35,271 nt of DNA from SAR202 cluster bacterium (GCA_016872495.1 VGZT01000023.1:1-35271); one strand, 5' to 3'. Shown: positions 16,044 through 33,898, counted from the stretch's first letter. Program-made: numbers and translations. The notes: generated by a model not told the origin, from the sequence alone.

Positions 16044-16409
16044 CTACAAGAAGACGACCCGGCGGTCCGGGCTGTCGTACGCGATCACGCAGACGAATGG
16101 CTCGCTGCCGGTATTGCGGGCGAAATGGTGGACTCCACGGGGAATGCGCACGGTATCGCCGGGCCCCATTGTGAACTGCTGCTCCCCGACCGTCTTGATG
16201 CACTCACCCGACTGGACGTACAGGATCTCATCACAGTTCGGGTGAAAGTGCGGGCGATTCGATTCCCCCGGGCTGATCGAACAGACCCCCAGCGTCATCG
16301 TGGCTCCCGGATCCAGGGCGGCGGACTTCAGGAACACGATCCATCCCCACGAGTAGTCCTCGCGTGCACCGCGATCGAAGGCGGTCAGGAGGTCCGCGGG
16401 ACTGGTCAT
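16044..16409 (-). CDS. Small single-domain cupin protein
   Basis: A 121-residue single-cupin protein. The metal-binding motif one is PHFHPNCDEILYVQSGE, with His54, His56 and Glu61. Motif two is GDTVRIPRGVHHFARNTG, with its His in the expected place. Such proteins bind a divalent metal and act as sugar-phosphate isomerases, dioxygenases or sensors; the reaction here cannot be named. Being first in an operon with gnd and zwf suggests a link to sugar-acid metabolism, which is inference. ATG 16409 is preferred because GGGGAG lies eight bases upstream; a GTG three codons earlier would sit against that site. It is divergent from the CoA-transferase genes, 71 bp away. Confidence 0.85.
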   Translation of the reverse strand: MTSPADLLTAFDRGAREDYSWGWIVFLKSAALDPGATMTLGVCSISPGESNRPHFHPNCDEILYVQSGECIKTVGEQQFTMGPGDTVRIPRGVHHFARNTGSEPFVCVIAYDSPDRRVVFL

Positions 16410-16466
16410 CTGATGCACTCCCCGGTCAGGCGCTTGAGCTCAGGGCAACTCGGTCGCACCCGCTGC

Positions 16467-16472
16467 TAAAAT
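16467..16472 (+). promoter_or_regulatory. TAAAAT -10-like box, possible leaderless start of the CoA-transferase operon
   Basis: TAAAAT at 16467-16472 is the best -10 hexamer in the 71-bp divergent region. It ends eight bases before ATG 16481, and no Shine-Dalgarno sequence stands before that ATG. That spacing places the likely transcription start at or within a few bases of the start codon, as in leaderless genes. No -35 hexamer is evident at 16-18 bp. Confidence 0.4.
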
Positions 16473-16480
16473 CTGCCGCC

Positions 16481-17197
16481 ATGCCCACCAACAAGACATG
16501 CCATGGCTTCGCAGACGCCGTTTCGGATATACCCGACGGCGCGTCGATCATGGTAGGCGGTTTTGGCGGCGCGGGCGGGCTGCCCTTCAGGCTACTCACC
16601 GCGCTGCGGGATCACGGCGCCCGGCGGCTCACGATCATCAGCAATACGGCCGGAGTCTCCATGGTCACCGGCTTCGGCTGGCCAAAGGGGGAGAAGCCGA
16701 TCGACCATTCGATCCTGTTCGAGAACGGGCAGGTCGCCCGTTTCATTGGAACCTACCCGGTGCCTGGCTCGGTCTCGCTGCGGAACGCCTTCCAGGCTGC
16801 TTTCGACCGCAAGGAGGTCGCGCTGGAACTCGTCCCCCAGGGCACGTTCGTCGAAAGAATCCGGGCGGGTGGGGCTGGCATCCCGGCGTTCTTCACGCCG
16901 ACGGCCGCCGGGACCCGGCTTGCCGAGGGCAAGGAAGTCCGCACTTTCGACGGACGGGCCTGCGTGATGGAACGTGCGCTGCGTGCCGATTTCGCGTTCG
17001 TGCGGGCCGCGGTGGCCGACACGCTGGGCAACCTGATGTACGTCGGGTCCTCACGTGCGTTCAACCCGGCCATGGCGACGGCCGCCGATATCACGATCGC
17101 CGAGGTCGACCGCATCGTGCCGCCCGGGAAGATCGACCCGGAGCGCGTCGGCACGCCCGGCGTCTACGTTGACCGCGTGGTGGCGCGCAGCGCATGA
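16481..17197 (+). CDS. CoA-transferase subunit A (class I, 3-oxoacid/3-oxoadipate type)
   Basis: The alpha subunit of a family I CoA-transferase, 238 residues, which moves CoA from an acyl-CoA donor (often succinyl-CoA or acetyl-CoA) to a carboxylic acid. The CoA-binding glycine-rich motif is IMVGGFGGAGGLPF near residue 25. Further family landmarks are LTIISNTAG, GTFVERIRAGGAGIPAFFTP and ALRADFAFVRAAVADTLGN. ATG 16481 aligns with normal N-termini; the frame is open further upstream but that part is the shadow of the cupin gene. Its stop overlaps the start of the B subunit (ATGA). It opens a long run of coupled plus-strand genes, so the acid it activates may be a product of that pathway. Substrate unknown. 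Confidence 0.92.
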   Translation: MPTNKTCHGFADAVSDIPDGASIMVGGFGGAGGLPFRLLTALRDHGARRLTIISNTAGVSMVTGFGWPKGEKPIDHSILFENGQVARFIGTYPVPGSVSLRNAFQAAFDRKEVALELVPQGTFVERIRAGGAGIPAFFTPTAAGTRLAEGKEVRTFDGRACVMERALRADFAFVRAAVADTLGNLMYVGSSRAFNPAMATAADITIAEVDRIVPPGKIDPERVGTPGVYVDRVVARSA

Positions 17198-17874
17198 GCG
17201 ACCCGGCGCCCCGCCTCGATCGCGACCTGATCGCGATGCGTGTCGCTCGCGAGTTCGAAGACGGGTTTGTCGTCAATCTGGGCATCGGCATCCCGACCCT
17301 CTGCTCCAACTTCGTTCCGGAGGGCGTCCAGGTCCTGTACCAGAGCGAAAGCGGGGTCCTCAACTACGGACCCCTCGCCGAAGAAGGCCGGGGCAGCATC
17401 GATCTGATCAACGCGGGCGGCCAGTTCGTCACGCCCAATCCTGGGATGGCCCTGTTCGATTCCGCCGAGGCCTTCGCCATGATCCGGGGCGGCCACATCG
17501 ACGTCACGGTGCTCGGAGGGCTGCAGGTCTCACGCGCCGGCGACCTCGCAAACTGGTTCCTGCCTTCCCGGGGCATCGGCAACGTCGGCGGGGCCATGGA
17601 CCTGGCCGCGGGCGCACGCAAGGTCATCGTCGCCATGGAGCACAACGACCGCACCGGAAACCCGAAGGTCGTCGACCAGTGCACCTTCCCGCTCACCGGG
17701 GCACGCTGCGTTGACCTGATCGTCACCGATATCGCGGTCATCGAGGTGCTGCCCGACGAGCGCGGCCTGTTGCTGAAAGAGCACGCCCCGGGGTGGAGTT
17801 TCGAGGCGGTCCAGAAGGCAACCGGCGCCCGGCTCGAGCGGTCGCCGTCACTCGCCGAGTTCACCTTCGCCTGA
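17194..17874 (+). CDS. CoA-transferase subunit B (class I, 3-oxoacid/3-oxoadipate type)
   Basis: The beta subunit, 226 residues. It carries the catalytic glutamate (Glu52 in YQSESGVLNYGP) that forms the glutamyl-CoA thioester. Other family blocks are VNLGIGIPTLCSNF, INAGGQFVTPNPG, VTVLGGLQVS and VIVAMEHNDRTGNPKVV. The usual SENG is SESG here, an accepted variant as far as I know. It overlaps subunit A by four bases and shares one base with the following hyuB (TGATG), so translation is coupled on both sides. The pairing with hydantoinase-type genes is less usual than its more common partners in ketone-body or aromatic degradation operons. Confidence 0.92.
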   Translation: MSDPAPRLDRDLIAMRVAREFEDGFVVNLGIGIPTLCSNFVPEGVQVLYQSESGVLNYGPLAEEGRGSIDLINAGGQFVTPNPGMALFDSAEAFAMIRGGHIDVTVLGGLQVSRAGDLANWFLPSRGIGNVGGAMDLAAGARKVIVAMEHNDRTGNPKVVDQCTFPLTGARCVDLIVTDIAVIEVLPDERGLLLKEHAPGWSFEAVQKATGARLERSPSLAEFTFA

Positions 17875-19640
17875 TGACAGCTCCTCCCGGCCGGCGGACA
17901 CGAAAACGCGCTACCGACCCGATCCGGTTCGAGGTCATTCGTAACGCCCTGACGCAGGCGACCGAAGAGATGGCCATCGCCCTGCGGCGCAGCGCCTACA
18001 GCACCAATGTGAAAACGCGCCAGGACTTCTCCTGTGCCTTCTTCGATCGCGACCTCCGGGTCATCGCACAGGCGTTCACTCAGCCCGTTCATCTCGGCTC
18101 GTTCGTCGAGCACGTCCCTCGTGCCGTGCGACGCTTCGGCATCGACAAGTTCGGGCCGGGTGACATGGTCCTCTCCAACGACCCCTATGGCGGCGGCGTT
18201 CACCTGAACGACATCACCTTGATCGGCGCCGTCCACTGGCAGGGCCAGCTGGTCGGGTACACGGCTTGCCTGGCCCACCACGTCGATGTCGGCGGCGGCG
18301 CCCCCGCATCGGTCGGCGCCTTCCAGGAGGTCTTCCAGGAGGGTGTCATCATCCCGGCGGTCAGGCTGGTGCGGGCCGGGAAGATCGTCGACGACGTGTT
18401 TCGGCTTGTCCTCGCCCAGATTCGATCGAAACGGGAGACCGCCGGTGACTTCCGGGCACAGGTGGCATCGAACGTTACCGGCGCCAAGCGAGTGTGTGAG
18501 CTGATCGATCGCTACGGGCTCCCCGAGTTCGAGCGCTACGTCAATGAGATCGTCGAGTACACACGCCGGCGCACACGCTCGGAGCTCAAAAAGCTGCCGC
18601 CCGGGACTTACGAGGCGGAAGGGTTTGTGGACAACGACGGCTTCACGGACGAGGTCGTGCGGTTGAAGGTGAAGGTCACGGTCGACGCGTCCGGAGTGGT
18701 GTTCGACACGACCGGATCGGCCCGGCAGCGAAGGGCGCCCGTTAACTCGACCTTCGCCCAGACCTTCTCGGCGTGCGCCTACGCCCTGCGCGCGCTCATG
18801 GACAAGGACCTGCCCGTCAACGCCGGCTTCTACGAGTTCGTGAAGGTGATCGCACCGCCCGGTTCCGTGACCAACGCGGTCCACCCCGCGCCGGTAGTCG
18901 GCGGCTGGGAGACGCACGTGCGCGTCAATGACCTGATATTCAAGGCGCTATCAGCCGCCCTGCCCGACGCCATCTGCGCCGGCACCAAGGCGATGCAGTG
19001 CCACGCAGGGTTTGGCGGCATCCAGGCCGAAGGCGACTACTACTGCTTCCTGGAAACCCTCGCGGGCGGGTACGGGGCACGCTCGCGCAAGGACGGACCG
19101 GATGCGGTGCAGTCGCACGGGCAGAACACCGAAAACGCACCGGTGGAAGAGACTGAAACGAACTACCCGGTCCGGATCCTCAGGTATGAGCTGGTTGCCG
19201 ACTCCGAGGGCCCCGGCCGCCAGCGCGGCGGGCTCGGCTTGCGGCGCGACTACCAGTTTCCCGGCGAGACGACCTTTACCGTGCTGGCCGATCGCGACCG
19301 GGCAGGTCCGCACGGCCTCTTCGGCGGCCTCCCTGGCAGTGTTTCCAGCTACGTCTTCAATCCCGATACGAGCTCCGCGCGCGCCCTGGGCTCAAAGTCC
19401 ACATTGCAACTTCAGCCCGGCGACGTAATCAGCTACCGGACTTCGGGCGGCGGCGGGTTCTACCCTCCCGAGAAGCGTGACCCCGAGCTGGTGAGTATCG
19501 ACGTGCGCGATGGCAAGGTGAGTGCAGCCCGCGCCCGCAGCGTATACCGCGTGATCACGGATTCCACCGGCAAGGTCGATGCAGCTGCAACTGCGCGCCT
19601 TAGGAAGTCGGGCCGCCGCGCCCGGGGCCAGGACGCATGA
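17874..19640 (+). CDS. hyuB: Hydantoinase B/5-oxoprolinase family protein (first HyuB paralogue)
   Basis: A 588-residue HyuB-type subunit. With HyuA it makes ATP-dependent amidohydrolases (N-methylhydantoinase, 5-oxoprolinase) or carboxylases (acetone/acetophenone type). The signature NDPYGGGVHLNDIT starts at residue 102 and HHVDVGGGAPAS at His135, both expected to bind the metal. C-terminal family blocks are APVNSTFAQTFSACAYALRA, HGQNTENAPVEE and RQRGGLGLRRDYQF. The start is ATG 17874, sharing its A with the TGA of the CoA-transferase B gene; open sequence further upstream is that gene in another frame. A second, clearly homologous hyuB follows with a four-base overlap. The substrate is not readable; the neighbouring N-methylglutamate genes suggest an N-methylated ring compound. 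Confidence 0.92.
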   Translation: MTAPPGRRTRKRATDPIRFEVIRNALTQATEEMAIALRRSAYSTNVKTRQDFSCAFFDRDLRVIAQAFTQPVHLGSFVEHVPRAVRRFGIDKFGPGDMVLSNDPYGGGVHLNDITLIGAVHWQGQLVGYTACLAHHVDVGGGAPASVGAFQEVFQEGVIIPAVRLVRAGKIVDDVFRLVLAQIRSKRETAGDFRAQVASNVTGAKRVCELIDRYGLPEFERYVNEIVEYTRRRTRSELKKLPPGTYEAEGFVDNDGFTDEVVRLKVKVTVDASGVVFDTTGSARQRRAPVNSTFAQTFSACAYALRALMDKDLPVNAGFYEFVKVIAPPGSVTNAVHPAPVVGGWETHVRVNDLIFKALSAALPDAICAGTKAMQCHAGFGGIQAEGDYYCFLETLAGGYGARSRKDGPDAVQSHGQNTENAPVEETETNYPVRILRYELVADSEGPGRQRGGLGLRRDYQFPGETTFTVLADRDRAGPHGLFGGLPGSVSSYVFNPDTSSARALGSKSTLQLQPGDVISYRTSGGGGFYPPEKRDPELVSIDVRDGKVSAARARSVYRVITDSTGKVDAAATARLRKSGRRARGQDA

Positions 19641-21451
19641 GCCGCCGGTCGTCCATTGACCCCGTGCGATTCGAGGTGGTGCGCAACGCCCTGACCGAGG
19701 TCACCGAGGAGATGGCCGCCGCGCTGCGCAAGAGCGCGTACTCAACCAACATCAAGACGCGCATGGACTTCTCATGCGCATTCTTTGATGCCGCCACCCG
19801 CCCCATAGCGCAATCCTTTGCTCAACCCGTCCACCTCGGATCATTCGTAGAGCTGATCCCGCGTGCCGTGAAGGCCTACGGGCCCGAGAACATGGCGCCC
19901 GGCGACATGCTGGTCACCAACGACCCCTACGGCGGCGGCAGCCACCTCAACGATGTCACCGTCTTCGCGCCCGTCTTCTACCAGGGGGAGAAGCAGCCAG
20001 GGCGGCTGATCGGGTACGTCGCAGCACTCGCGCACCACGTGGACGTCGGGGGCGGCGCCCCGGCCAGCATCGGCCCGTTCCAGGAGGTCTACCAGGAGGG
20101 CGTGATCATCCCCCCGGTGAAGCTCGTGGAACAAGGCGAGATCTCTGACGACATCTTCCGGCTGATCCTCGCCCAGATCAGGTCAAAGCGGATCACCGCG
20201 GGCGATTTTCGGGCCCAGATCGCGGCCAACATCGCAGGCATCCGGCGGCTCCACGAGCTGGTGACCAGGACCGGAGTGGACCAGTTCCTGGCATACGTCG
20301 AGGAGATCATCGCTTACACGAGGCGCCGGACGGCCGCAGAGATCGCAAAGCTGCCGCGCGGTGTCTATGAGGCCGAAGGCTTCCTGGATAACGACGGGTT
20401 CACGGACCAGGTCGTGAACCTCAAGGTCAGGATTACGATCGACGGATCGGGCGTCTTCTTCGACCTTGCCGGCTGTGACCCGCAGAGGCGGGCGCCCGTC
20501 AATTCGACCTACGCGATGACGTATTCCGCGTGCGCCTACGCCCTTCGTGCACTGATGGACAAGGACCTGCCAATCAACAGCGGGTTCTACCAGTTCGTGC
20601 GCCTGAACGCGCCAAGCGGGACGGTCGTAAACGCCGTTCACCCCGGTGCGGTCGTCGGTGGCTGGGAGACGCAGATCAGGGTCAACGACCTGATGTTCAA
20701 GGCGCTTTCCCAGGCCGTGCCGGAGGCTGTCCCCGCTGGCTGCAAGGCCATGATGGCGCAGGCCGGGTACGGCGTCATCGAGCGCAAATCGGGCGAGTAC
20801 CTGTGCAACTACGAGGCGCTGGCAGGTGGCTACGGGGGCCGGGCGACCAAGGACGGACCGGATGCCGTGCAGGGCCACGGCCAGAACACCGAGAACGCCC
20901 CGGTGGAAGAGACCGAAGGCGCATACCCGGTAATGATCACCCGGCTGGAGCTCATCGACGACTCTGACGGGGCCGGGCGCCACCGCGGCGGACTCGGCCT
21001 CCGTCGCGACTACTACTTCCCCCACGACGACGCCACGTTCACCATCCTGTCCGACCGCGACCGTGCAGGTCCCTGGGGGTTGTTTGGCGGTCTGCCAGGC
21101 CGCAAGGCCTACTACCTCCTCAATCCCGAATCCGAGGCAAGGCCGCTTTCGTCCAAGTGCGTCGTGCAGTTGAAGGCCGGCGATACCCTGAGCTTCCAGA
21201 CCCCCGGCGGCGGCGGCTACGGGTTCCCCGGGCAGAGGGACCCGGAACTGGTACTGCGGGACGTGCGGGACGGCAAAGTCAGCCTGCAACGAGCGCGTGA
21301 CGTCTACCGCGTGGCGATCGACCGATCCGCGTGGAAGGTCGACGGACGGGCGACCGCGCGCCTGCGAGCATCTGCCGCTGCACGGGGCGGGACCACGCAC
21401 CAATCAAGGGACAAACAGGCAGCCGCCAGGGCTGAAAGGGGATCCAGATAG
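19637..21451 (+). CDS. hyuB: Hydantoinase B/5-oxoprolinase family protein (second HyuB paralogue)
   Basis: A 604-residue HyuB subunit clearly paralogous to the preceding one; by eye well over half of the residues agree along the whole length. It keeps NDPYGGGSHLNDVT (Asn95 onward) and HHVDVGGGAPAS (His133 onward), HGQNTENAPVEE and the late HRGGLGLRRDYYF. Small differences include a short insertion, QGEKQPGRLIGY, before the histidine motif and an extended polar C-terminus rich in Ala, Arg and Gln. The start overlaps the previous stop (ATGA). Two intact metal motifs imply both B subunits are functional, perhaps forming A with B and B' for two substrates, or one mixed complex. Its TAG overlaps the unusual ATA start of hyuA. 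Confidence 0.92.
   Translation: MSRRSSIDPVRFEVVRNALTEVTEEMAAALRKSAYSTNIKTRMDFSCAFFDAATRPIAQSFAQPVHLGSFVELIPRAVKAYGPENMAPGDMLVTNDPYGGGSHLNDVTVFAPVFYQGEKQPGRLIGYVAALAHHVDVGGGAPASIGPFQEVYQEGVIIPPVKLVEQGEISDDIFRLILAQIRSKRITAGDFRAQIAANIAGIRRLHELVTRTGVDQFLAYVEEIIAYTRRRTAAEIAKLPRGVYEAEGFLDNDGFTDQVVNLKVRITIDGSGVFFDLAGCDPQRRAPVNSTYAMTYSACAYALRALMDKDLPINSGFYQFVRLNAPSGTVVNAVHPGAVVGGWETQIRVNDLMFKALSQAVPEAVPAGCKAMMAQAGYGVIERKSGEYLCNYEALAGGYGGRATKDGPDAVQGHGQNTENAPVEETEGAYPVMITRLELIDDSDGAGRHRGGLGLRRDYYFPHDDATFTILSDRDRAGPWGLFGGLPGRKAYYLLNPESEARPLSSKCVVQLKAGDTLSFQTPGGGGYGFPGQRDPELVLRDVRDGKVSLQRARDVYRVAIDRSAWKVDGRATARLRASAAARGGTTHQSRDKQAAARAERGSR
21435..21450 (+). promoter_or_regulatory. Shine-Dalgarno site pointing to an ATA start codon of hyuA
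   Basis: AAAGGGG at 21435-21441 is a strong ribosome-binding site. Six bases later, at 21448-21450, stands ATA, in frame with the conserved HyuA N-terminus. An in-frame stop at 21433-21435 and the first in-frame ATG at 21505 (inside the ATP-binding domain) bracket a stretch with no ATG, GTG or TTG. ATA overlaps the TAG of the upstream gene (ATAG), as ATGA does at other joints of the operon. Confidence 0.6.
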
Positions 21452-23562
21452 CTACGGCAAAGTTCCGGCTGGGCGTCGACATCGGTGGCACCTTCACCGA
21501 CGCGATGCTGGTGAATGAAGAAACCGGGGGCATCGAGATCGTCAAGGTGCCTTCGACCCCGTCCGACCCCTCCGGGGGATTCGTCGAGGCGACGCTCCGC
21601 ATCCTCAAGAGATCAGATGTGACGCCGGGCCAGCTGGCGTTCGTCGTGCACGGCACCACGGTCGCCACCAACTCGATCATCGAGGGCAAGGTGGCGCGGA
21701 CCGGATTCGTTACCACGGACGGGTTCCGCGACATGCTCGAGATCGCCCGCCAGATACGGCCATCGCTTTATGACCTCCAGTTCGACAAGCCGCCGCCACT
21801 GGTCCCGCGGTACCTGTGTTTCGGCGTGCCGGAGCGACTGGATGCGCGCGGAAAGGTCCTGAAGGAACTCGACGAGGAACGGGTCCGGGAAGTCGCCCGC
21901 GAACTCGGCCGGCAAAAGGTCGAGTCGATCGCCGTCTGCCTCCTGCACTCGTACGTGAACCCCGCGCACGAGGCGCGCATCAAGCAGATCCTCCAGGAAG
22001 AGCTCGGGGACATTTCACTCTCGATCTCGTCCGAGCTCGCTCCGGAGTTCAGAGAGTACTTCCGTGCGAGCACCACCGTGGTCAATGCCGCGATCCGTCC
22101 CGTGGTGGCCCGTTACCTCCAGGGGATCGAGAAGCGGCTGCGGGCGGAAGAGCTGACCGCCGAACTGCTCGTGATGCAGAGCAACGGCGGAGTCCTCACT
22201 TTCGAGGCGGCTGCCGAGCGCCCGGTGTTCATGGTCGAGTCGGGCCCCGCCGCCGGTGTGATCGCCGCCTCCTACCTGGCCGCCTCGCTCGGACACAAGG
22301 ATGCGATCTCATTCGACATGGGCGGCACTACCGCAAAGGTCGGACTGGTCCAGGACGGCCGGGCGAGGATCACACGGGACTACGAGGTCGGAGCGGCGGC
22401 GCGTGCCGGCACCGGCTCGGCCCGCGGCAGCGGATACCCGATCCGCACACCCGTGATCGATCTGGTCGAGATCGGTGCGGGTGGCGGCTCGATCGCATGG
22501 GTCGACTCAGGCGGTGTGTTGCGAGTGGGACCGCACAGCGCGGGCGCCGATCCGGGCCCGGCCTGCTACGGCCAGGGCGGCAAGGAGCCGACCATCACGG
22601 ACGCCAACCTCGTGCTTGGCCGGCTGAACCCTGACTACTTCCTGGGCGGCGAGGTCAAACTCCATGTCGAACTGGCGCGCGCCGCGATCGAGAACCGGTG
22701 CGCCCGCCCCCTCGGAATAGATGTGCTGCAGGCCGCCAACGGGATCATCGAGATCGCCAATAGCGCGATGGTCAACGCACTCCGGCTCATCTCCGTCCAG
22801 CGCGGGTACGATCCACGTGACTTCGCCCTGATCGGCTTCGGAGGCGCGGGCCCGGTCCACGCGAATCGCCTGGCCGCAGAGAACGACATCCCCACCACGA
22901 TCATCCCGATGTCGCCCGGGATCACCTGCGCCATGGGACTGCTGGTGACCGACCTCCAGCACGACTACTCAGCCACCCTCCTGCGAAGGGCTGACGCCGT
23001 CGAGCCCGCCAGGATCGAGGAGCATTTCAAGCGCCTCGAAGCGTCCGGGCGCGCCGCATTGAAACGAGACGGAGTGCCCGCCTCAGGCATGAAGTTCCTG
23101 CGGCTGATCGATATGCGCTACGTGGGTCAGAGCTATGAGCTGCCAGTGCCGCTGGCTTCCGGAGCGTTCGGCGCGACCCGGCTCGACAAGGCCGTTTCCG
23201 ACTTCCACGCCGCCCACGAGCGGGCATATGGACACGCGGCCCCCGCCGAGCCGGTGGAGATCGTGAACCTCAGGTTGACCTCCCTTGGCGCGATCCAGCG
23301 CCCCACGTTGAGGGAGATACCGAACCAGCCAGGTGCTTCCCCGGCGACCGCCCTGAAGGGCACTCGCCAGGTCTACTTCGCAGAATCGGGCGGCATGGTG
23401 AAGGCGTCCGTATACGACCGGTATCGCCTCGTTGCGGGAGCGGTGCTGAAAGGGCCGGCAATCGTCGAGGAGATGGACTCAACCACGGTGATACATCCCG
23501 GCTACCAGGGCTCCGTGGACCGCTTCGGGAATATCGTCCTGACCAGAGGCAGGTCGCGATGA
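21448..23562 (+). CDS. hyuA: Hydantoinase/oxoprolinase A subunit (HyuA) with apparent ATA start
   Basis: A 704-residue ATP-binding subunit of the hydantoinase/5-oxoprolinase/acetone carboxylase family. It phosphorylates the ring or carbonyl substrate that HyuB then hydrolyses. Phosphate-binding loops are DIGGTFTD (residues 11-18) and FDMGGTTAKVG (from about residue 289). Further blocks are HGTTVATNSIIEGK, IGAGGGSIAWVDSGG, AGADPGPACYG and ALIGFGGAGPVHA. The first in-frame ATG (21505) would delete the first ATPase loop, so it cannot be the real start. Homology requires translation from about 21448, where ATA follows a strong Shine-Dalgarno site; CTG at 21469 is a weaker alternative. One HyuA thus serves two HyuB paralogues. 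Its stop overlaps the next gene (ATGA). The family is secure; the substrate is unknown. Confidence 0.9.
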   Translation: MATAKFRLGVDIGGTFTDAMLVNEETGGIEIVKVPSTPSDPSGGFVEATLRILKRSDVTPGQLAFVVHGTTVATNSIIEGKVARTGFVTTDGFRDMLEIARQIRPSLYDLQFDKPPPLVPRYLCFGVPERLDARGKVLKELDEERVREVARELGRQKVESIAVCLLHSYVNPAHEARIKQILQEELGDISLSISSELAPEFREYFRASTTVVNAAIRPVVARYLQGIEKRLRAEELTAELLVMQSNGGVLTFEAAAERPVFMVESGPAAGVIAASYLAASLGHKDAISFDMGGTTAKVGLVQDGRARITRDYEVGAAARAGTGSARGSGYPIRTPVIDLVEIGAGGGSIAWVDSGGVLRVGPHSAGADPGPACYGQGGKEPTITDANLVLGRLNPDYFLGGEVKLHVELARAAIENRCARPLGIDVLQAANGIIEIANSAMVNALRLISVQRGYDPRDFALIGFGGAGPVHANRLAAENDIPTTIIPMSPGITCAMGLLVTDLQHDYSATLLRRADAVEPARIEEHFKRLEASGRAALKRDGVPASGMKFLRLIDMRYVGQSYELPVPLASGAFGATRLDKAVSDFHAAHERAYGHAAPAEPVEIVNLRLTSLGAIQRPTLREIPNQPGASPATALKGTRQVYFAESGGMVKASVYDRYRLVAGAVLKGPAIVEEMDSTTVIHPGYQGSVDRFGNIVLTRGRSR

Positions 23563-24701
23563 AGCGGGTTGCCGACATCGCGGTCATCGGGGCCGGATGC
23601 ATGGGCCTCAGTATCGCCTGGCACCTCGCGCGCGCCGGCGCCGGGCGTGTGATCGTCATCGACCAACGTGGCGTGGCCACTGGTGCGACCGCCAATTCGA
23701 GCGCAATCCTGCGCACCCACTACGAGAATCCCGCGCTTGCGAGCATGGCGTGGCACGGGCTGAAGGTTTTCAGTGACTTCGAGGCGATCGCAGGCGGGCC
23801 CTCCGGCTTCCGCAAGACGGGCTTCCTTTTCCTGGGCGGAAAGAAGGACGCCGCCGCGATTCGCAAGACCTCCCGGGCCATCCGGGCCCTGGGCATCAAC
23901 TCGGTGATCCTCGAAGCCGGCGAGTTCCATCACATCGAGGCCCGCACCTCGCGTGACGACATTGGAGTCGTCATCTGGGAGCCCGAGTCCGGCCACGCCA
24001 GTGCGTCGGTTGCTTCGGCCACCCTTGCCGATGCCGCTCGCCGAAGCGGCGCGCAGATCAGCACGGGCGAAACCGTTATTTCCATCACCGGCCGCAAAGG
24101 GCGCGTCACCGGTATCGAGTCCACCGCTGGCAAACTGGCCGTTGGCACGGTCGTGGTCGCAGCCGGTTTCAGGTCAATGGGGTTGTTGGAGCCGCTCGGC
24201 GTCAAGCTGCCCCTGACCCCCGTGCGTCATCCGATCGCGGTCGTGACAACCGCCGGAAGCCATCCCGTCGCTCCCGTGGTCGGTGACAGGATCCTCGGTG
24301 CGTACCATCGGCCCGAGGGATCGAACCAGTTCCTGGTGGGCCGGTACGGCTTCATGGACGGCGACCGCGACGAAAGCGTCGAAGAAGCAAAGCCTGCCAG
24401 GGCGACCGCGCTCGAATCCCTGTTGAAGGCCTTCAAGGCTCGCTGGCCTTACGAGGCAAACGCACGATTGGCACGCAGCTACACCGGCGTCTATGACTGC
24501 ACCCCGGACCTTGAGCCGGCCCTCGGTCCCGTCGCCGGTGTCGACGGGCTGCACGTCGCGGCGGGCTTCAGCGGTCACGGTTTCAAGCTTTCCCCCGCGG
24601 TCGGCGAAATGGTCGCCGGCGGGATCACCGGGGACAGCAGCAGGATTGCCCGTGCCGACCGGTTCGACGTCAGGCGCTTCGAGCTCCGGAGCCTGAAATG
24701 A
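23559..24701 (+). CDS. DAO-family FAD-dependent amine/amino-acid oxidoreductase (first of pair)
   Basis: A 380-residue flavoprotein of the D-amino-acid oxidase/sarcosine oxidase/dimethylglycine dehydrogenase superfamily, which oxidises secondary or tertiary amines to imines. The FAD motif VIGAGCMG lies at residues 9-16. Near the C-terminus VYDCTPDLEPALGP and GLHVAAGFSGHGFKLSP are the isoalloxazine-contacting blocks of this family. The RHDA histidine that carries covalent FMN in sarcosine oxidase beta subunits is not present (GHASASV at the corresponding region). It overlaps hyuA and the next gene by ATGA at both ends and is paralogous to the next gene. It plausibly oxidises an N-methyl amino acid released by the HyuAB enzyme, which is inference. 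Confidence 0.88.
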   Translation: MKRVADIAVIGAGCMGLSIAWHLARAGAGRVIVIDQRGVATGATANSSAILRTHYENPALASMAWHGLKVFSDFEAIAGGPSGFRKTGFLFLGGKKDAAAIRKTSRAIRALGINSVILEAGEFHHIEARTSRDDIGVVIWEPESGHASASVASATLADAARRSGAQISTGETVISITGRKGRVTGIESTAGKLAVGTVVVAAGFRSMGLLEPLGVKLPLTPVRHPIAVVTTAGSHPVAPVVGDRILGAYHRPEGSNQFLVGRYGFMDGDRDESVEEAKPARATALESLLKAFKARWPYEANARLARSYTGVYDCTPDLEPALGPVAGVDGLHVAAGFSGHGFKLSPAVGEMVAGGITGDSSRIARADRFDVRRFELRSLK

Positions 24702-25870
24702 ACCAGTCGGCGGACATCGTCATCATCGGCGGCGGCGTCATGGGCGCAAGCATCGCCTTCAACCTTGCAGGGCGTGGCCACACCAACGTCGTCCTCCTCG
24801 AGGCTCGCAAGCTCGCGGCCGAAGGCACCGGGCACTCCGGCGCCCTCGTGCGACAACACTATTCCCAGGATGTCATCACACGGCTCGCGCGCCGGTCTGT
24901 CGACATCTTCGAGAACTTCGACCGGCTCACCGGAGGCGGGAAGGTCTTCGAACAGACCGGGTGGATCAAGCTCGGCACCGAGGCAATGCGCCCCGCGATG
25001 GAGAAGAACCTGGTCAGACACCGGGCGCTCGGTGTCGATGCCCGCATGTTGACCATCGACGAGCTCAAGGCAGCGATCCCGGGGATGAACGTCGAGGGCA
25101 TAGGGAGCGCCTTGATCGAACCGCGCGGCGGCTACGCCGACCCGGTCGCTACCACGCTGGGCTTCGCGCATCGGGCCCGGGCGCTCGGCGCTCAGATACG
25201 CGAGGGCGAAGCGGCCACCGGGATCGACGTCCAGGGCGGGCGAGTGACCGGCGTCAGGACGACGCGTGGTCGCATCGCAACTCGGACGGTGGTGAACGCC
25301 GCAGGCCCCTGGGGGGCTCAAATCGCCGCCTGGGTCGGGGTTACCGTCCCGCTGGAAGTCACACGCGAGCAGGACATTGTGCTGGCCTGCGACGACCTCT
25401 CGTTGATCCCGCGCATGCCGGTGTCCAACGGCGTCGATCGGGATTACTGGAGGCGCGAGCCGGGCGACCTCCTCCTGGTTGGCGACGGCCACCCCAAGGA
25501 GATCGAACGCGCAGATCCCGACAGTTTCAAGCGCGCGGTTGACCGCTCGTTCGTCGACATGATCATGGGGCGGCTCTCACACCGGCTCCCACGCCTGGCC
25601 GCGCGTGCCAGGGTAGTCCGGGGGTACGCAAGCCTCTACGATGTGACGCCCGACTGGCACCCGATCCTGGGGAAGACCGACGTGGATGGATTCGTCCTGT
25701 GCGTCGGTTTCAGCGGCCACGGCTTCAAGCTTGGGCCGGCAATCGGCGAGGTGATCGCCGACGAGCTCGTTGGGAGACGCCCGGGTTCGATCGACGTCTC
25801 AACCCTCGGCCTCGACCGGTTCGCAAGCGGACGTCTCCTTGAAGGTAGCTACGCAGGCAATCAGGCCTGA
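24698..25870 (+). CDS. DAO-family FAD-dependent amine/amino-acid oxidoreductase (second of pair)
   Basis: A 390-residue paralogue of the preceding flavoprotein. The FAD motif VIIGGGVMGAS begins near residue 8, followed by the second acidic pocket LLEARKLAAEG. A mid-protein IEPRGGYADPVATTLGF resembles the substrate domain of glycine/sarcosine oxidases. The C-terminal blocks are LYDVTPDWHPILGKT and GFSGHGFKLGPAIGEV. It overlaps its partner by four bases. It is the last gene before an 86-bp gap leading to the N-methylglutamate genes. Two similar oxidases side by side could form a heteromer or act on two successive N-methyl groups; neither can be decided here. The family is secure. Confidence 0.88.
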   Translation: MNQSADIVIIGGGVMGASIAFNLAGRGHTNVVLLEARKLAAEGTGHSGALVRQHYSQDVITRLARRSVDIFENFDRLTGGGKVFEQTGWIKLGTEAMRPAMEKNLVRHRALGVDARMLTIDELKAAIPGMNVEGIGSALIEPRGGYADPVATTLGFAHRARALGAQIREGEAATGIDVQGGRVTGVRTTRGRIATRTVVNAAGPWGAQIAAWVGVTVPLEVTREQDIVLACDDLSLIPRMPVSNGVDRDYWRREPGDLLLVGDGHPKEIERADPDSFKRAVDRSFVDMIMGRLSHRLPRLAARARVVRGYASLYDVTPDWHPILGKTDVDGFVLCVGFSGHGFKLGPAIGEVIADELVGRRPGSIDVSTLGLDRFASGRLLEGSYAGNQA

Positions 25871-25956
25871 GCGGTTCGGTCGTCTACACTCTTGCTCCGG
25901 GAACGCTCTTTGAGAACCGCAGCCGCCCGCTCGGGCGGGACCAGAGGCGAAACAAT
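25871..25956 (+). promoter_or_regulatory. 86-bp leader upstream of mgsA with two inverted repeats
   Basis: This is the only sizeable gap within the fifteen-gene run. GCGGTTC (25871-25877) and GAACCGC (25914-25920) are perfect 7-bp arms 36 bases apart. Immediately after, CCGCCC (25923-25928) and GGGCGG (25933-25938) form a six-base-pair hairpin with a four-base GCTC loop. No T-run follows, so it is not a classical terminator. It ends only four bases before the AGAGG ribosome site (25943-25947) of mgsA and may modulate transcription or translation of the N-methylglutamate block. Confidence 0.35.
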
Positions 25957-26883
25957 TTGTGCGGAATAGCCGGATACCTCGATAAACGGACCGCCAGCGC
26001 GCCGGTGGGCAATGTGTTGCTGGGGATGCTCGAGGCGCTCGGGAAGCGAGGCCCGGACTCCGCCGGGCTGGCGCTCATGGGGCCCACCCCGGACAGCCGC
26101 GAGGTCTGCTGGATATGCCTGCCCGAGGACCGCGATCTCGAGTCGGCGGTCGATGTTGCGCTCGATCTCGTCAAGAGCGTGGCCCGGGTGCGCGATCACC
26201 GGGTCTCCGGCGGGATGGTCAGGCTGGAAATCGCACGCCAGTGCGACGTCGTAGAGTTCTGCCGCAGGGTTGAAGACCCACGGCACGGACTCGAGATCGT
26301 GAGCCTCGGCAAGAACCTGGAACTCGTGAAGCAGGTAGGTTCACCACGCAACCTGGCGCACGCCCTCGACGTCCGTAGATTCAAGGGCAGCCACGGAATC
26401 GGCCATACGCGGCTATCCACCGAGAGCAAAGTCGACCTGTCCCACTCGCAGCCCTTCTGGGCGAGAGGCGTGCCGGACCTGGCCACCGTCCACAACGGCC
26501 ACATAACGAACTACCACCGCCTGCGCAGGATCTATGAGCAGAAGGGGGTCCGATTCTTCACGGAGAACGACTCTGAAGTCATCGGCGTCTACCTCGCCGA
26601 CCAGATGAGCGCGGGCCGCTCGCTCGAAGAGGCGATGGTCAGGTCGCTGCAGGACCTCGACGGCAGCTTCACCTACCTCGTCGCGACGCCTGACCTGCTC
26701 GGCTATGCGCGTGACCCGTTCGCCCTCAAGCCCCTCATTACCGTCGAAACCGACGGATACGTCGCGATCGCCAATGAGGAGGTCGCGATTCGCGCGGCCC
26801 TCGGGACCGATGGCGTTGCGCATGAGCCCTCGGGGAATGTGCATCGCATCTGGAGCAGGGCCCGACAGGCGGCGCTGGCATGA
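25957..26883 (+). CDS. mgsA: N-methylglutamate synthase subunit A (class II glutamine amidotransferase, GlxB-like)
   Basis: A 308-residue class II glutamine amidotransferase. The mature N-terminus would be Cys2 in MCGIAGYLDK, the Ntn nucleophile, followed by KRGPDSAGLAL. Conserved HIGHTRLSTES-like sequence (here SHGIGHTRLSTES), VHNGHITNYHRLR and FTENDSEVIG complete the glutaminase fold. In the NMG pathway this subunit hydrolyses or transfers from gamma-glutamylmethylamide within the MgsABC complex. Start codon TTG 25957 is fixed because the Cys must be residue 2; AGAGG (25943-25947) lies nine bases upstream. Its stop overlaps mgsB (ATGA). GlxB of the glx operon is the close alternative name, but gmaS and mgd genes downstream favour MgsA. 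Confidence 0.9.
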   Translation: MCGIAGYLDKRTASAPVGNVLLGMLEALGKRGPDSAGLALMGPTPDSREVCWICLPEDRDLESAVDVALDLVKSVARVRDHRVSGGMVRLEIARQCDVVEFCRRVEDPRHGLEIVSLGKNLELVKQVGSPRNLAHALDVRRFKGSHGIGHTRLSTESKVDLSHSQPFWARGVPDLATVHNGHITNYHRLRRIYEQKGVRFFTENDSEVIGVYLADQMSAGRSLEEAMVRSLQDLDGSFTYLVATPDLLGYARDPFALKPLITVETDGYVAIANEEVAIRAALGTDGVAHEPSGNVHRIWSRARQAALA

Positions 26884-27581
26884 GTCCTGCGCGCAACCCG
26901 GTCATCGACTGCGCTGGGCGGTCGACACGCGATATCAATAGAGATATCAGGGCGAGCCTGGGCCCCGGGCGGAGGGTCAAGGTTCGGAATCCGGCTGCGC
27001 GCCACAACCTCGGTGTCGCCCTTCTTTCGCCTGGCGCGGTCGGCTTCGAAGGCAGCGTTGGCTACTACTGCGGCGGCATGAACGATGGCGCCACGGTAAC
27101 CGTCAACGGGAGCGCCGGTTGGGGCGTGGCCGAAGGCATGCTCTCCGGCACGGTCGAAGTGGCGGGCAACGCCGGCAACGGCGCGGCGGCCTCGATTCGC
27201 GGCGGGCTGGTGGTCGTCAAGGGCGACTGTGCCGCGCGCGCCGGCGTCAGCATGAAGGGCGGGCTGCTGTTGATCGGTGGCGATGCCGGCTACATGACGG
27301 CTTTCATGATGCAGCGCGGAACGATCGTGATCGTTGGCAACGCCGGACACGCGCTCGCCGATTCGATGTACGAAGGGGTCGTCTACGTCGGCGGTGAGAT
27401 CGAGTCACTCGGCAACGACGCCGTCGTCAAGGCGCCGAGCCGGTCAGACCGCCAGGCAATCGCAGCAGCTCTCGAGGAGCACCACATACCGGTACCTAAA
27501 CGCCTCAAGAAAGTTGTATCCGGCAGGAAGCTCTGGAACTTCGAGCATGCCGAGCTGGAAACATGGCGGGCGGCGCTATGA
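26880..27581 (+). CDS. mgsB: N-methylglutamate synthase subunit B (GXGXG domain, GlxC-like)
   Basis: A 233-residue protein matching the C-terminal GXGXG beta-helix domain of glutamate synthase large subunits. Glycine-rich repeats of about 19-20 residues run from roughly residue 50 to 190, for example GSAGWGVAEGMLSGTV, GNAGNGAAASIRGGLVVV, GDAGYMTAFMMQRGTIVI and GNAGHALADSMYEGVVYV. In glutamate synthase this domain is structural, connecting the glutaminase and FMN domains; here the three domains are separate polypeptides MgsA, MgsB and MgsC. It overlaps mgsA by four bases and mgsC by four. The same gene order A-B-C is found in known methylamine-utilising bacteria. Confidence 0.92.
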   Translation: MSPARNPVIDCAGRSTRDINRDIRASLGPGRRVKVRNPAARHNLGVALLSPGAVGFEGSVGYYCGGMNDGATVTVNGSAGWGVAEGMLSGTVEVAGNAGNGAAASIRGGLVVVKGDCAARAGVSMKGGLLLIGGDAGYMTAFMMQRGTIVIVGNAGHALADSMYEGVVYVGGEIESLGNDAVVKAPSRSDRQAIAAALEEHHIPVPKRLKKVVSGRKLWNFEHAELETWRAAL

Positions 27582-28894
27582 CACCCACCGGCGACGAGCG
27601 GACCAGCCGGATCTTCACACCCGGCGTGATCGACGAGATTCAGGAAAAGGCTGCGCTCGCACGCTACCGCATCCGCGGCTTCGGCACCCTGCGCGAACGG
27701 GCCCTGCCGTCGCTCGACGACCTCACCTTCCTCCCGGCATCCCTGACCCGGATCCCGCTCGAGGGCTACCGCGAGAAGTGCGATACCAGGACCGTCCTCG
27801 GCACGCGCCACGCCGAGGTGCCAGTCGAGCTCGACATCCCGGTCATGATCACCGGCATGAGCTATGGGGCTCTCTCGTTCAACGCAAAGGTGGCGCTCGC
27901 ACGAGGCGCCGCCGCGGCAGGCACATCGACCACCTCGGGCGACGGCGGGATGCTGCCGGCCGAACGCGCGAATTCGAAGAAGATGATCGTGGAGGTGCTC
28001 CCCAGCAGATACGGCGCCAACGTCCATCACCTGCGGGAAGCAGACGCCATCGAACTCACGATCGGCCAGGGCGCCAAACCGGGCACCGGGGGGCTCCTCC
28101 TGGGCAGCAAGATCTCGCCCGAGATCGCGAAAATCCGCGAGCTGCCTCCCGGGGTCGACCAGCGCTCCCCCGCCCGGCACCCCGACTTCCTGGGGCCGGA
28201 CGACATGATCATCAAGATCGAGGAGTTGAGGGAAGCGACCGACTGGAAGGTGCCGATCTTCGTCAAGATGGGCGCCACCAGGGTCTTCGACGACGTCAAG
28301 CTGGCCGCCAAGTGTGGCGCCGACGTCGTGGTAGTCGACGGAATGGAAGGCGGCACCGCAGCTTCACCGGAGCTGCTGCAGGACCACACCGGGATCCCGA
28401 CCCTGGCCGCCATTGCCGAGGCACGGCGAGCGCTCGAGGACCTCGGTCTCTTCGGTTCGGTGCAGCTGATCGCAGCAGGCGGGATCCGCAGCGGTGTCGA
28501 CGTCGCCAAGGCCCTGGCCCTGGGCGCCGACGCCTGCTACATCGGCACGGCTGCGCTGATCGCCCTGAACTGCAATCGCTCTCTCTATGTCGAGGACTAC
28601 GAGAGACTCGGCACCCGGCCCGGCCGCTGCCACCATTGCCACACCGGCCGCTGCCCGGTCGGCATCACGACTCAGGACCCAAAACTGGTTGCCCGCCTCC
28701 CCATCGATGAGGCGGCGCAGCGCGTCACCAACTTCCTGATCGCGATGACCCTGGAGGCGCAGATGATCGCGCGCTCGTGCGGGAAGGCCAACGTGCACGA
28801 CCTGGACCCCGACGACCTGCGCGCGCTCACGGTAGAGGCGGCCGCGATCACCCGGATCCCGCTGGTTGGGACGCACTGGATACCAGGACAGTAG
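27578..28894 (+). CDS. mgsC: N-methylglutamate synthase subunit C (FMN-binding glutamate synthase domain)
   Basis: A 438-residue FMN-dependent glutamate-synthase central domain (GlxD-like). The FMN/TIM-barrel landmarks are PVMITGMSYGALS, QGAKPGTGGLLLG, FVKMGATRVFDD, VDGMEGGTAASPE and AAGGIRSGVDVAKALALGA. The iron-sulfur motif GRCHHCHTGRCPVG supplies Cys351, Cys354 and Cys359. The complex converts gamma-glutamylmethylamide plus 2-oxoglutarate and reductant to N-methylglutamate and glutamate. ATG 27578 overlaps the mgsB stop (ATGA), which is preferred over an in-frame ATG five codons earlier. A single base separates its stop from the TTG of mgdB. Confidence 0.93.
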   Translation: MTPTGDERTSRIFTPGVIDEIQEKAALARYRIRGFGTLRERALPSLDDLTFLPASLTRIPLEGYREKCDTRTVLGTRHAEVPVELDIPVMITGMSYGALSFNAKVALARGAAAAGTSTTSGDGGMLPAERANSKKMIVEVLPSRYGANVHHLREADAIELTIGQGAKPGTGGLLLGSKISPEIAKIRELPPGVDQRSPARHPDFLGPDDMIIKIEELREATDWKVPIFVKMGATRVFDDVKLAAKCGADVVVVDGMEGGTAASPELLQDHTGIPTLAAIAEARRALEDLGLFGSVQLIAAGGIRSGVDVAKALALGADACYIGTAALIALNCNRSLYVEDYERLGTRPGRCHHCHTGRCPVGITTQDPKLVARLPIDEAAQRVTNFLIAMTLEAQMIARSCGKANVHDLDPDDLRALTVEAAAITRIPLVGTHWIPGQ

Positions 28895-28895
28895 C

Positions 28896-29183
28896 TTGTC
28901 ATTCCTCCTGCCCTGCCCGCAGTGCGGCCCACGTGACGTCTATGAGTTCAGGTACGGCGGCGAGGCACAGCGACGGCCGGCGCCCGGTTCACCCCGGTCC
29001 ACGTGGACCGCATACCTCTACGACCGGACCAACGCCGCCGGCGTAGAGGATGCCTGGTGGTACCACCGCCTTGGCTGCAAGCGGTGGTTCAGAGCCGTAC
29101 GGGATACCCGCGACAACACCGTCCTGAAGTCGACCGCACCCACGGTCCCGCCCCGCGATGCGAATGACCCGCCAGGAGATTAG
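28896..29183 (+). CDS. mgdB: N-methylglutamate dehydrogenase subunit B (sarcosine oxidase delta-like)
   Basis: A 95-residue SoxD-type subunit. The zinc site is Cys7 and Cys10 in LPCPQCGPRD together with His57 and Cys61 in YHRLGCKRWF, matching the Cys/Cys/His/Cys pattern of heterotetrameric sarcosine oxidase delta. FRYGGEA and the WFRAVRDT block are also typical. Start TTG 28896 is chosen because AGGA at 28885-28888 is spaced about seven bases and the protein then begins just ahead of the zinc motif. It follows mgsC by one base and overlaps mgdC by 26 bases. It stabilises the dehydrogenase complex rather than catalysing. Confidence 0.9.
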   Translation: MSFLLPCPQCGPRDVYEFRYGGEAQRRPAPGSPRSTWTAYLYDRTNAAGVEDAWWYHRLGCKRWFRAVRDTRDNTVLKSTAPTVPPRDANDPPGD

Positions 29184-31998
29184 CTTCACGTTCGACGGCC
29201 GAAGGGTCCAGGCCTTCGACGGCGACACCTATGGCTCGGCGCTGGCACGCGCACGGGTCGATGTCATCTCGCGCAGCTTCAAATACCACCGGCCACGGGG
29301 GTTACTGTGCTGCGCTGGTCGCTGCCCCAACTGCATGGTGACCGTCGACGGCGTCCCGAACGTGCGCGCCTGCGTGACCAGGGCGGTCGACGGCGGCACG
29401 GTCTCGGGGCAGAATGCATGGCCTTCGGTCCGCCGGGACCTCTTCGGCGCGTTCGACCGCCTCGACCGAATCCTGCCGGTTGGCTTCTACTACAAGACAT
29501 TCATCAGGCCCCGGGCCGCATGGCCAGTGTACGAAGGCGTGCTGCGACGGCTCGCAGGGCTGGGCTCGGTCAGGCGCACGCCCCGGCAAGCGGACCATGC
29601 GACCAAGCGCCACATGTTCTGCGACGTTGCCGTAATCGGTGGCGGACCAGGCGGATCGGTGGCTGCGCTGGCGGCCTCGCAAGCTGGCGCGCGAGTGGTC
29701 TTGATCGACGACCAGGAGCAACTGGGCGGCCATCTCGCCTACTCGCAGGCTACCGTTACCGGCGACGACGTCCTCAACGGTCTCCGCGGTCCCGAGGCGT
29801 CGGCGCGCCTCGAAAAGCTCATCCGGGAAAACCCGCTGATCGAGCACCTGCCTTCAACATCCGCGTTCGGCATCTACGAAGGCAACCTGGTTGGCGCCAG
29901 CCGCGGCGACTCCCTCTACCGCGTGCGGGCGAAACAGATAGTCGTGGCAACCGGGGCGTTTGAACGGCCCCTGCTCTTCCACAACAACGACCGCCCCGGC
30001 GTGATGTTGGCGTCGGCGATCCTCCGCCTCGCCGCGCGCCACGACGTCCGGGCTGGCCGGCGCGTCGCGGTGGTTACCGAAGACGACCACGGGTGCGCGG
30101 CGGCGCTTGAGCTCGCAAGCTCCGGATTCGACGTCACCGCCCTGGTCGACTCACGCCCGGCGGCGTCCGACCAGGAACGCTCCGCCGCCGTGCGTTCTCG
30201 ACACATACCGGTCTGGGAAGGCGCCACCAGGATCGAGGTGGTCGGGCGCTCCAGGGTCCGCCAGCTTCGCTTCGATTCAGGCGGCGGACGCCGTTCCGTT
30301 AACGCCGACCTGGTGGCGATGGCCGCTCGGCCCGAACCAGTCGTTTCGCTCCTTGCCCAGGCCGGCGCAAAGCTGGTTTTCGACGGCTCAACCGGCCTGT
30401 TCGTGCCCGCCGAGTGTCCTGCAAACATCACCGCTGCAGGCCATGTCGAGGGAATCTCCGACATCGCGGGCGTGCTGAAATCGGCGCGGGCGGCCGGCAC
30501 GCGCGCCGCCCTGCGTGCGCTTGGCCAGCCGGTAGCCACGCCGGCTCGGCCGCTACCAGGCGCGCCGATTGGAGCCGCGCCGCCACCGCCGGCCACTCGC
30601 AAGGCATTCGTCTGCATGTGTGAGGACGTGACGGTCAAGGACATCAAGCTCGCCATCCATGAAGGCTTCGACGCCCTGGAAACCGTCAAGCGCTACAGCA
30701 CGGCCACCATGGGGCCGTGCCAGGGCAAGATGTGCCACAGCCTGTCGGCAGGCGTCCACGCCGGCATCACCGGCCAGTCGGTCGGCAAGACCGGCCTCAC
30801 CACCGCCCGCCCACCATTTCAGCCGGTGACCCTGGCAGCCCTCGCCGGCCCTCACCTTGCGCCCGAACGGCAGACGGCACTCCACGACCGCCACGCCCGC
30901 CTGGGTGCGCGCTGGGTCGACATGGGCGAATGGAAGCGGCCGTTCATCTACACGACGGTTGCCGAGGAATACCGGGCGGTCCGCGAGGCGGCCGGAATCA
31001 TCGACGTCAGCACTCTCGGCAAGCTTGAGGTCACGGGTCGCGACGCCGGTGAGTTCCTGGACTGGCTGCATCCAAACAGGTTCAGTGACCTGCGAATCGG
31101 AAGGGTCCGATACCGGGCGATGACCGACGACGCTGGCATCGTGCTGGACGACGGCACGGTGGCGAGGCTGGGCCCCGAGCGGTTCTTTCTCACCACAGGC
31201 ACCGGCGCGTTCGACGCGGTCGAGCAGTGGCTGCAATGGTGGCTGGCCGGTTCCAGGCGCGACGTCCAGACCATCAACGTGACCTCCGAGCTGGCGGCGA
31301 TCAACCTCGCTGGCCCGAGATCACGCGAGGTCATCAAGCGACTGACCGGGGCGGACGTCTCTAATAAGGCCATGCCGTACCTGGCCGCCGTTGAGACGGA
31401 GGTCGCAGGCGTGCCGGCCATCATCCTGCGGATCGGCTTCGTGGGCGAGCTCGGCTTCGAGATCCACGTGCCGGCCGAATACGGCGCGCATGTCTGGGAC
31501 ACATTGATGGACGCCGGCCACGAATTCGGCATCAAGCCATTTGGCGTCGAGACCCAGCGAGTCCTCCGTCTCGAAAAGCTGCACATCATCCCGGGACAGG
31601 ACACCGACGCCCTGTCGAACCCGGTGGACTCAGGGCTCGGCTGGATCGTGAAGGCGGAAAAGAGCGATTTTGTCGGGCGCGCTGGGATCGCGGCGCTCGG
31701 AAGCCGATCCGGACGACCCCTTCTCATCGGCTTCGAGGTCACGGGCGGAGGCGTCCCGGCGGAAGGCGCTGCGGTCGTCCACCAGGGCCGCCCGGTCGGA
31801 CGCGTAACCAGCTGCAAATTGTCGCCCGGACTCCAGCGAGCGATCGGACTAGCATGGGTGAATCCGGAGCATGCAACCGAAGGCTCCGCCCTGTCGATAA
31901 GGCTTGGCGAAGGCACCAGCGGCACCACGACCGCCGCCCGGGTGCACCTGGCGCCTTTCCATGATCCAGAAGGCGCGCGACTGCGGGGCGGGGGATGA
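29158..31998 (+). CDS. mgdC: N-methylglutamate dehydrogenase subunit C (sarcosine oxidase alpha-like)
   Basis: A 946-residue SoxA-type subunit with the full domain order. First an N-terminal ferredoxin-like segment with Cys51, Cys52, Cys56, Cys59 and Cys72 (LLCCAGRCPNCMV, ACVTRA). Then a dinucleotide fold with VIGGGPGGSVAALAA near residue 160. Next a BFD-like region VCMCEDVTVKDIKLAIHEGF near residue 485 with GPCQGKMC about 35 residues later. Last, from about residue 595, an aminomethyltransferase (GcvT-like) domain predicted to bind tetrahydrofolate and capture the C1 unit as methylene-tetrahydrofolate. It works with MgdA, where amine oxidation occurs. ATG 29158 lies inside mgdB; ATG 29164 is an equally possible start. 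Its stop overlaps mgdD (ATGA). It could also be called sarcosine oxidase alpha; context favours MgdC. Confidence 0.93.
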   Translation: MRMTRQEISFTFDGRRVQAFDGDTYGSALARARVDVISRSFKYHRPRGLLCCAGRCPNCMVTVDGVPNVRACVTRAVDGGTVSGQNAWPSVRRDLFGAFDRLDRILPVGFYYKTFIRPRAAWPVYEGVLRRLAGLGSVRRTPRQADHATKRHMFCDVAVIGGGPGGSVAALAASQAGARVVLIDDQEQLGGHLAYSQATVTGDDVLNGLRGPEASARLEKLIRENPLIEHLPSTSAFGIYEGNLVGASRGDSLYRVRAKQIVVATGAFERPLLFHNNDRPGVMLASAILRLAARHDVRAGRRVAVVTEDDHGCAAALELASSGFDVTALVDSRPAASDQERSAAVRSRHIPVWEGATRIEVVGRSRVRQLRFDSGGGRRSVNADLVAMAARPEPVVSLLAQAGAKLVFDGSTGLFVPAECPANITAAGHVEGISDIAGVLKSARAAGTRAALRALGQPVATPARPLPGAPIGAAPPPPATRKAFVCMCEDVTVKDIKLAIHEGFDALETVKRYSTATMGPCQGKMCHSLSAGVHAGITGQSVGKTGLTTARPPFQPVTLAALAGPHLAPERQTALHDRHARLGARWVDMGEWKRPFIYTTVAEEYRAVREAAGIIDVSTLGKLEVTGRDAGEFLDWLHPNRFSDLRIGRVRYRAMTDDAGIVLDDGTVARLGPERFFLTTGTGAFDAVEQWLQWWLAGSRRDVQTINVTSELAAINLAGPRSREVIKRLTGADVSNKAMPYLAAVETEVAGVPAIILRIGFVGELGFEIHVPAEYGAHVWDTLMDAGHEFGIKPFGVETQRVLRLEKLHIIPGQDTDALSNPVDSGLGWIVKAEKSDFVGRAGIAALGSRSGRPLLIGFEVTGGGVPAEGAAVVHQGRPVGRVTSCKLSPGLQRAIGLAWVNPEHATEGSALSIRLGEGTSGTTTAARVHLAPFHDPEGARLRGGG

Positions 31999-33877: not shown

Positions 33878-33898
33878 CCAGACCAGGAGGCGAACGAC

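Follow-up and report, generated by a model that had tools for sequence, protein, structure and literature searches.

Start codons that depart from the canonical set and start-stop overlaps between neighboring genes have both been described in bacteria. In Staphylococcus aureus, the AUA starts of infC, ccpN and citZ function in vivo at ~10-30% of AUG output, initiation at citZ and ccpN being cut to this range, and the citZ AUA is confined to one lineage, the NCTC 8325 strains (PMC13009471). Initiation factor 3 (IF3) discriminates against AUA-type starts (PMC13009471 and references there), and start codons are said to all end in G (PMC10666635). Translational coupling across -4 overlaps, where the stop of one gene and the start of the next share four bases, is well documented (PMC6728339, PMC10666635), the published pairs being ATGA/GTGA or NTGA with TGA stops (PMC6728339, PMC10666635, PMC12548453).

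We analyzed a hyuA gene of a SAR202 cluster bacterium that appears to start with AUA within a -4 overlap. It has in common with infC genes starting with AUU or AUA, e.g. that of S. aureus, the AUA codon, a purine-rich Shine-Dalgarno (SD) element at short spacing and the expected discrimination by IF3 (PMC13009471); in contrast to these genes, hyuA is metabolic, its start overlaps the stop of the preceding gene, and relatives do not share the ATA. As with citZ, the AUA is confined to one lineage, whereas no overlap with an upstream stop is described for citZ or ccpN in the available text of PMC13009471. The hyuB-hyuA pair resembles termination-reinitiation pairs in its four shared bases and in encoding co-directional subunits of one enzyme, but it differs from the published ones in its TAG stop, with which the start must be NTA (PMC6728339, PMC10666635, PMC12548453). 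Neither AUA starts nor -4 overlaps are new as such; in the literature on these two subjects, of which our coverage was incomplete, we found no mention of the two combined at a UAG stop, with the AUA start inside the -4 overlap.

Gene context and integrity of hyuA

The window, i.e. the whole stretch of 35,271 nucleotides that was analyzed, corresponds to contig 23 in a draft genome of 2.34 Mb (102 contigs, 98% complete). An operon-like gene row spans positions 16364-35257 and encodes, in order, two CoA-transferase subunits, two tandem HyuB proteins, HyuA, two DAO-type FAD oxidoreductases, a class II glutamine amidotransferase, a GXGXG protein, a glutamate-synthase-like protein, sarcosine oxidase alpha, a GcvT-like protein, a third DAO and a type III glutamine synthetase. 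From what is generally known of these families, we presume that the row serves the use of N-methylated amines or hydantoins. The hyuB1/hyuB2, hyuA/DAO and DAO/DAO junctions are all ATGA (Table 1). Tandem hyuB paralogues before a single hyuA (17874-21451 here) are also suggested by DNA matches in several relatives (G021, G023, G030 and G031).

Table 1 Features of the hyuB-hyuA region (positions in the window).
Feature	Position	Strand	Remarks
hyuB1, tandem paralogue 5' of hyuB2	17874..19640	+	mechanical ORF from 17793; ATGA -4 overlap with hyuB2 at 19637-19640
hyuB2 (hydantoinase B / oxoprolinase family)	19637..21451	+	Pfam PF02538, E 7.7e-173; stop TAG 21449-21451
In-frame TGA, upstream limit of the hyuA frame	21433..21435	+	sequence reading
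SD-like AAGGGG	21436..21441	+	6 nt 5' of ATA; same element precedes infC
hyuA (hydantoinase A / oxoprolinase family ATPase-type subunit)	21448..23562	+	704 aa, intact; proposed ATA start
ATA, proposed hyuA start codon	21448..21450	+	aligns with TTG/ATG starts of relatives; canonical start absent
ATAG, shared by hyuA start and hyuB2 stop (-4 nt)	21448..21451	+	sequence; junction comparison
CTG, sole other common near-cognate candidate	21469..21471	+	would cost most of first beta strand up to GVDIGG
First in-frame ATG of hyuA	21505..21507	+	3' of DIGGTFTD loop; expected choice of automatic gene callers
FAD-dependent oxidoreductase (DAO)	23559..24701	+	ATGA -4 overlap with hyuA
Second DAO oxidoreductase	24698..25870	+	ATGA -4 overlap with preceding DAO

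HyuA carries the Hydant_A_N, Hydantoinase_A and C-terminal domains of its family (PF05378, PF01968 and PF19278; E 3.3e-56, 5.7e-102 and 7.7e-20) together with the DIGGT loop. Its closest solved relative is an N-methylhydantoinase (7hk5), 6yra being a further relative in the PDB, and it does not reach the curated NCBIfam equivalog cut-offs for caprolactamase or acetophenone carboxylase (NF050156, 619 bits versus 1000; NF042975, 343 versus 1500). Pairwise dN/dS extends from ~0.13 (G002, part of the gene) to ~0.18 (G023), values that are only rough because synonymous sites are near saturation. By these sequence measures, hyuA is intact and under purifying selection.

Start region of hyuA

After the bounding TGA, the hyuA frame reads AAG GGG ATC CAG ATA GCT ACG GCA AAG TTC CGG CTG GGC GTC GAC ATC GGT GGC ACC TTC ACC GAC. 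An earlier note on this DNA had claimed that no ATG, GTG or TTG lies in this frame between the stop at 21433-21435 and ATG 21505, and direct reading confirmed it. The same note had placed AAAGGGG six bases ahead of the ATA (the element occupies 21435-21441) and had the ATA overlap an upstream TAG. Both observations hold: the TAG is the stop of hyuB2 and shares bases with ATA to form ATAG, the in-frame stop of hyuA itself being TGA. The pair thus has the layout of a -4 overlap, with four shared bases and an upstream SD.

No canonical start fits the conserved N-terminus. Counted along the ORF from stop to stop, the Pfam Hydant_A_N match begins with residue 11, so that a start at ATG 21505 would remove the phosphate-binding loop. 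That match, together with canonical starts at all 59 other loci compared (see below), indicates that the missing canonical start is more than chance. In agreement with the earlier proposal, ATA 21448-21450 is the best start, favored by homology, by its distance from the SD, by the overlap of four bases and by the same design at infC of this genome.

Two other ways of making HyuA from this junction were considered. Translation from CTG 21469 would give MGVDIGGTFTD..., and CTG is the likely start of two other genes in this genome (see below). However, this codon lacks an SD at the right distance, every homologue that was compared has its start at least 3 codons ahead of GVDIGG, and most of the first strand, which aligns from residue 3 of the solved N-methylhydantoinase, would be lost; we regard this start as very unlikely. 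A HyuB-HyuA fusion via -1 frameshifting before TAG 21449 is conceivable in that the two frames are offset by a single base and both stay open over 21436-21451. Yet the overlap contains no X XXY YYZ slippery heptamer, the RNA structure at the hyuA start is unremarkable (z 0.43), and relatives make separate proteins, each with its own canonical start, which leaves such a fusion with hardly any credibility.

Comparison with hyuA of relatives

We compared the starts of 60 hyuA-type loci, including this one, from relatives and the GTDB genome collection. At each of the 59 others, a canonical start (ATG, GTG or TTG) precedes the loop, so the ATA is specific to this genome and is not conserved across species. 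In the comparison of this position among relatives, which the earlier note had suggested, the ATA, 8 codons before GVDIGG, falls on the start codon of relatives (TTG in G023, G004 and G014, whose HyuA proteins are 66-68% identical to that of the source, and ATG in G020 and G021); ATA itself occurs at none of the 59 loci. Among the closest relatives, the G002 contig starts partway through hyuA, and G001 gave no hyuA match. In two other genomes, hyuA is interrupted or damaged by assembly, being split over two frames in G011 (L050/L067, C42) and containing an in-frame TAG in G005 (C14).

Because ATA is unique among the 60 loci, the change would be recent on this scale, and with all other loci canonical it could even be harmful. 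This uniqueness also fits a gene that recently lost its start and has just become a pseudogene or nearly fallen silent. Against such a loss stand the intact 704-codon ORF with its low dN/dS, the SD retained at the right distance and the intact downstream operon, and we consider it a shade less probable even than the CTG start.

Junctions were counted in the 31 relatives whose hyuA starts canonically and is preceded by a long ORF. In 13 of these the start lies in a 4-nt overlap with the upstream stop (ATGA, GTGA or TTGA), and in none does the overlap exceed 4 nt; the -4 overlap is therefore, as judged from these sequences, the usual hyuB-hyuA junction among relatives. This count bears on the base-call error that the earlier note had offered as an origin of the ATA. 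In a metagenome-assembled draft of 102 contigs, a mistake in sequencing or assembly, or else a minority variant, could hide a true G at 21450 and an ATG start, a single base separating the two codons. With ATGG, however, the hyuB stop would be abolished and hyuB would run ~63 nt into hyuA to TGA 21512-21514, an overlap without parallel among the 31 relatives. Indel errors are of no help, because the downstream frame is already right, and infC independently shows the same ATA design. An error is thus unlikely, if the least improbable of the alternatives.

AUA as the start of infC in this genome and order

The infC gene of the same genome (L266, G000 C13:23300-24300), an ORF that scores as IF3 (TIGR00168), also has no ATG, GTG or TTG start. 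Its start region reads AGG GGG TCT GGA ATA GCT CGA GAA TAC CGC ATC AAC CGG, i.e. AGGGGG-N6-ATAGCT (N6 = TCTGGA) as against AAGGGG-N6-ATAGCT in hyuA, which thus shares the start and SD layout of this putatively IF3-regulated type of start. RGGGG-N6-ATAGC has 5 matches in the whole genome, and only those at infC and hyuA are followed by a convincing coding frame that lacks a canonical start. Another of the matches (L326, G000 C14, ~27016, minus strand) opens a 181-codon frame with a modest coding score, whose first canonical codon is at 64 and which overlaps an upstream 183-codon ORF ending in TAG.

Across the order, infC was readable in 29 genomes, of which 26 have ATA at the start position and one has ATT (L266, L305-L324, L183-L194); 20 of those 26 genes have zero canonical codons in frame upstream, and the ATA is mostly preceded by a purine-rich SD. 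Given the 26 of 29 genes, the sequences indicate that the lineage has kept AUA as its infC start, as in S. aureus (PMC13009471). The statement that AUA initiation is very rare in bacteria stands in general, but this order has AUA as the conserved start of infC. Because infC of this bacterium and of its relatives also begins with AUA, the codon is probably a working start signal here, and probably a weak and regulated one.

Loss of IF3 was rejected as a cause of relaxed starts, IF3 being present in the source genome and in 36 of 40 genomes, and an altered anticodon stem of the initiator tRNA was rejected because GGG/CCC is retained. Position 1:72 of this tRNA (L222) is U-G, versus C-A in E. coli.

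Other non-canonical starts

A codon-score scan over 775 kb of the 2.34 Mb genome was used to find genes whose conserved domain starts 5' of the first canonical start. In aroK (L102, + strand, 9622), a CTGA -4 overlap with the upstream gene, presumably aroB from its position and family, is preceded by a GGAG SD, and the first canonical codon lies beyond the P-loop; relatives have TTGA (G004, G014), GTGA (G021) or ATGA (G003) at this junction. A uracil-DNA glycosylase gene behind an acyl-carrier-protein gene has no canonical start 5' of its conserved tryptophan near the N-terminus in any of the three members of the genus (G000, G001, G002; L245, L246, L247), the start being canonical in the other genera read. 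From these sequences, CTG is likely the start of both genes in this genome. In rsmA/ksgA (L279, minus strand, G000 C3), no ATG, GTG or TTG precedes SPRKALGQHFL, G001 having an ATG nearby, and translation likely begins at an ATT preceded by a G-rich element. The conserved domain likewise precedes the first canonical start in genes for an EamA transporter, an MFS protein and a beta-lactamase-family protein. The glutamine amidotransferase gene at 25957 was rejected as a start-less case, as TTG directly precedes CGIA. The excess over four relatives is not significant (7/596 genes versus 4/992; Fisher p 0.11).

Similar junctions occur in other genomes. In G046, queA (L176, + strand, 5849) follows a folD-like ORF with a CTGA -4 overlap, the QueA N-terminus falling exactly at CTG; in G029, an MFS gene (L151, minus strand) has a CTGA -4 overlap in which CTG is the only start that fits the conserved N-terminus; and a recF-like gene of G003 has no canonical start. 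In the source genome, L344 (G000 C26, ~31524, minus strand) shows GGAGG, a short spacer and an ATAG at which a 340-codon ORF stops and an MFS frame begins, possibly a second ATAG -4 overlap, with a GTG 19 codons on as the alternative start. We tentatively suggest, while thinking it somewhat doubtful, that reinitiating ribosomes at -4 overlaps tolerate non-canonical starts in this Chloroflexota lineage, so that CTGA (aroB-aroK, queA of G046, MFS of G029) and ATAG (hyuB-hyuA, possibly MFS of C26) would be ordinary start sites at which gene callers systematically overlook or shorten the gene.

Separately, a TlpA/AhpC-like thioredoxin gene (L094, minus strand, 14857 in reverse coordinates) reads MWASW(TGA)ACREQLPVWQ, with an in-frame TGA at the position of an active-site cysteine; selenocysteine, a small deletion and a pseudogene are candidate readings.

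Proposed initiation at hyuA and its significance

We consider it very probable that hyuA is translated from AUA 21448, most likely by weak, IF3-sensitive initiation supported by reinitiation after hyuB2. Ribosomes finishing hyuB2 would halt at the UAG, where the four-base junction also contains the AUA and AAGGGG lies just upstream, and either these terminating ribosomes or a fresh 30S subunit would initiate on AUA with fMet-tRNA. The product would be a normal HyuA of 704 residues whose sequence opens with (f)Met-Ala-Thr-Ala-Lys-Phe-Arg-Leu-Gly-Val-Asp-Ile-Gly-Gly. Because the AUA would be weak and sensitive to IF3, as that of infC probably is, HyuA output would be low and tied to hyuB translation and to the IF3 level. 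Initiation at this codon, reinitiation, IF3 sensitivity and low output are what we infer from the layout.

Regulatory down-tuning by the AUA is plausible. As for its history, the ATA may have come from an ATGG start through a G-to-A change: ATGG to ATAG is one change, which would both weaken the start and create the hyuB stop at the -4 position, whereas TTG to ATA takes two. A history involving a 10-nt insertion (GATAGCTAC, common to G023) was rejected because the ungapped N-terminal alignment (ATAKFRLG / ATDSYRLG / TTEKYRIG) stays in frame.

For a TAG stop to lie in a -4 overlap the start must be NTA, and among the NTA codons only ATA differs from ATG by a single base. ATAG junctions would escape gene callers as well as the rule of published overlap surveys. 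At hyuA, gene callers would trim the protein by 19 residues, deleting the phosphate-binding loop. As IF3 discriminates against AUA-type starts, hyuA and infC should respond alike, and this pair of AUA starts with the same layout in one genome would offer a direct test of IF3 control over a metabolic gene, and of whether reinitiation relaxes the choice of start codon.
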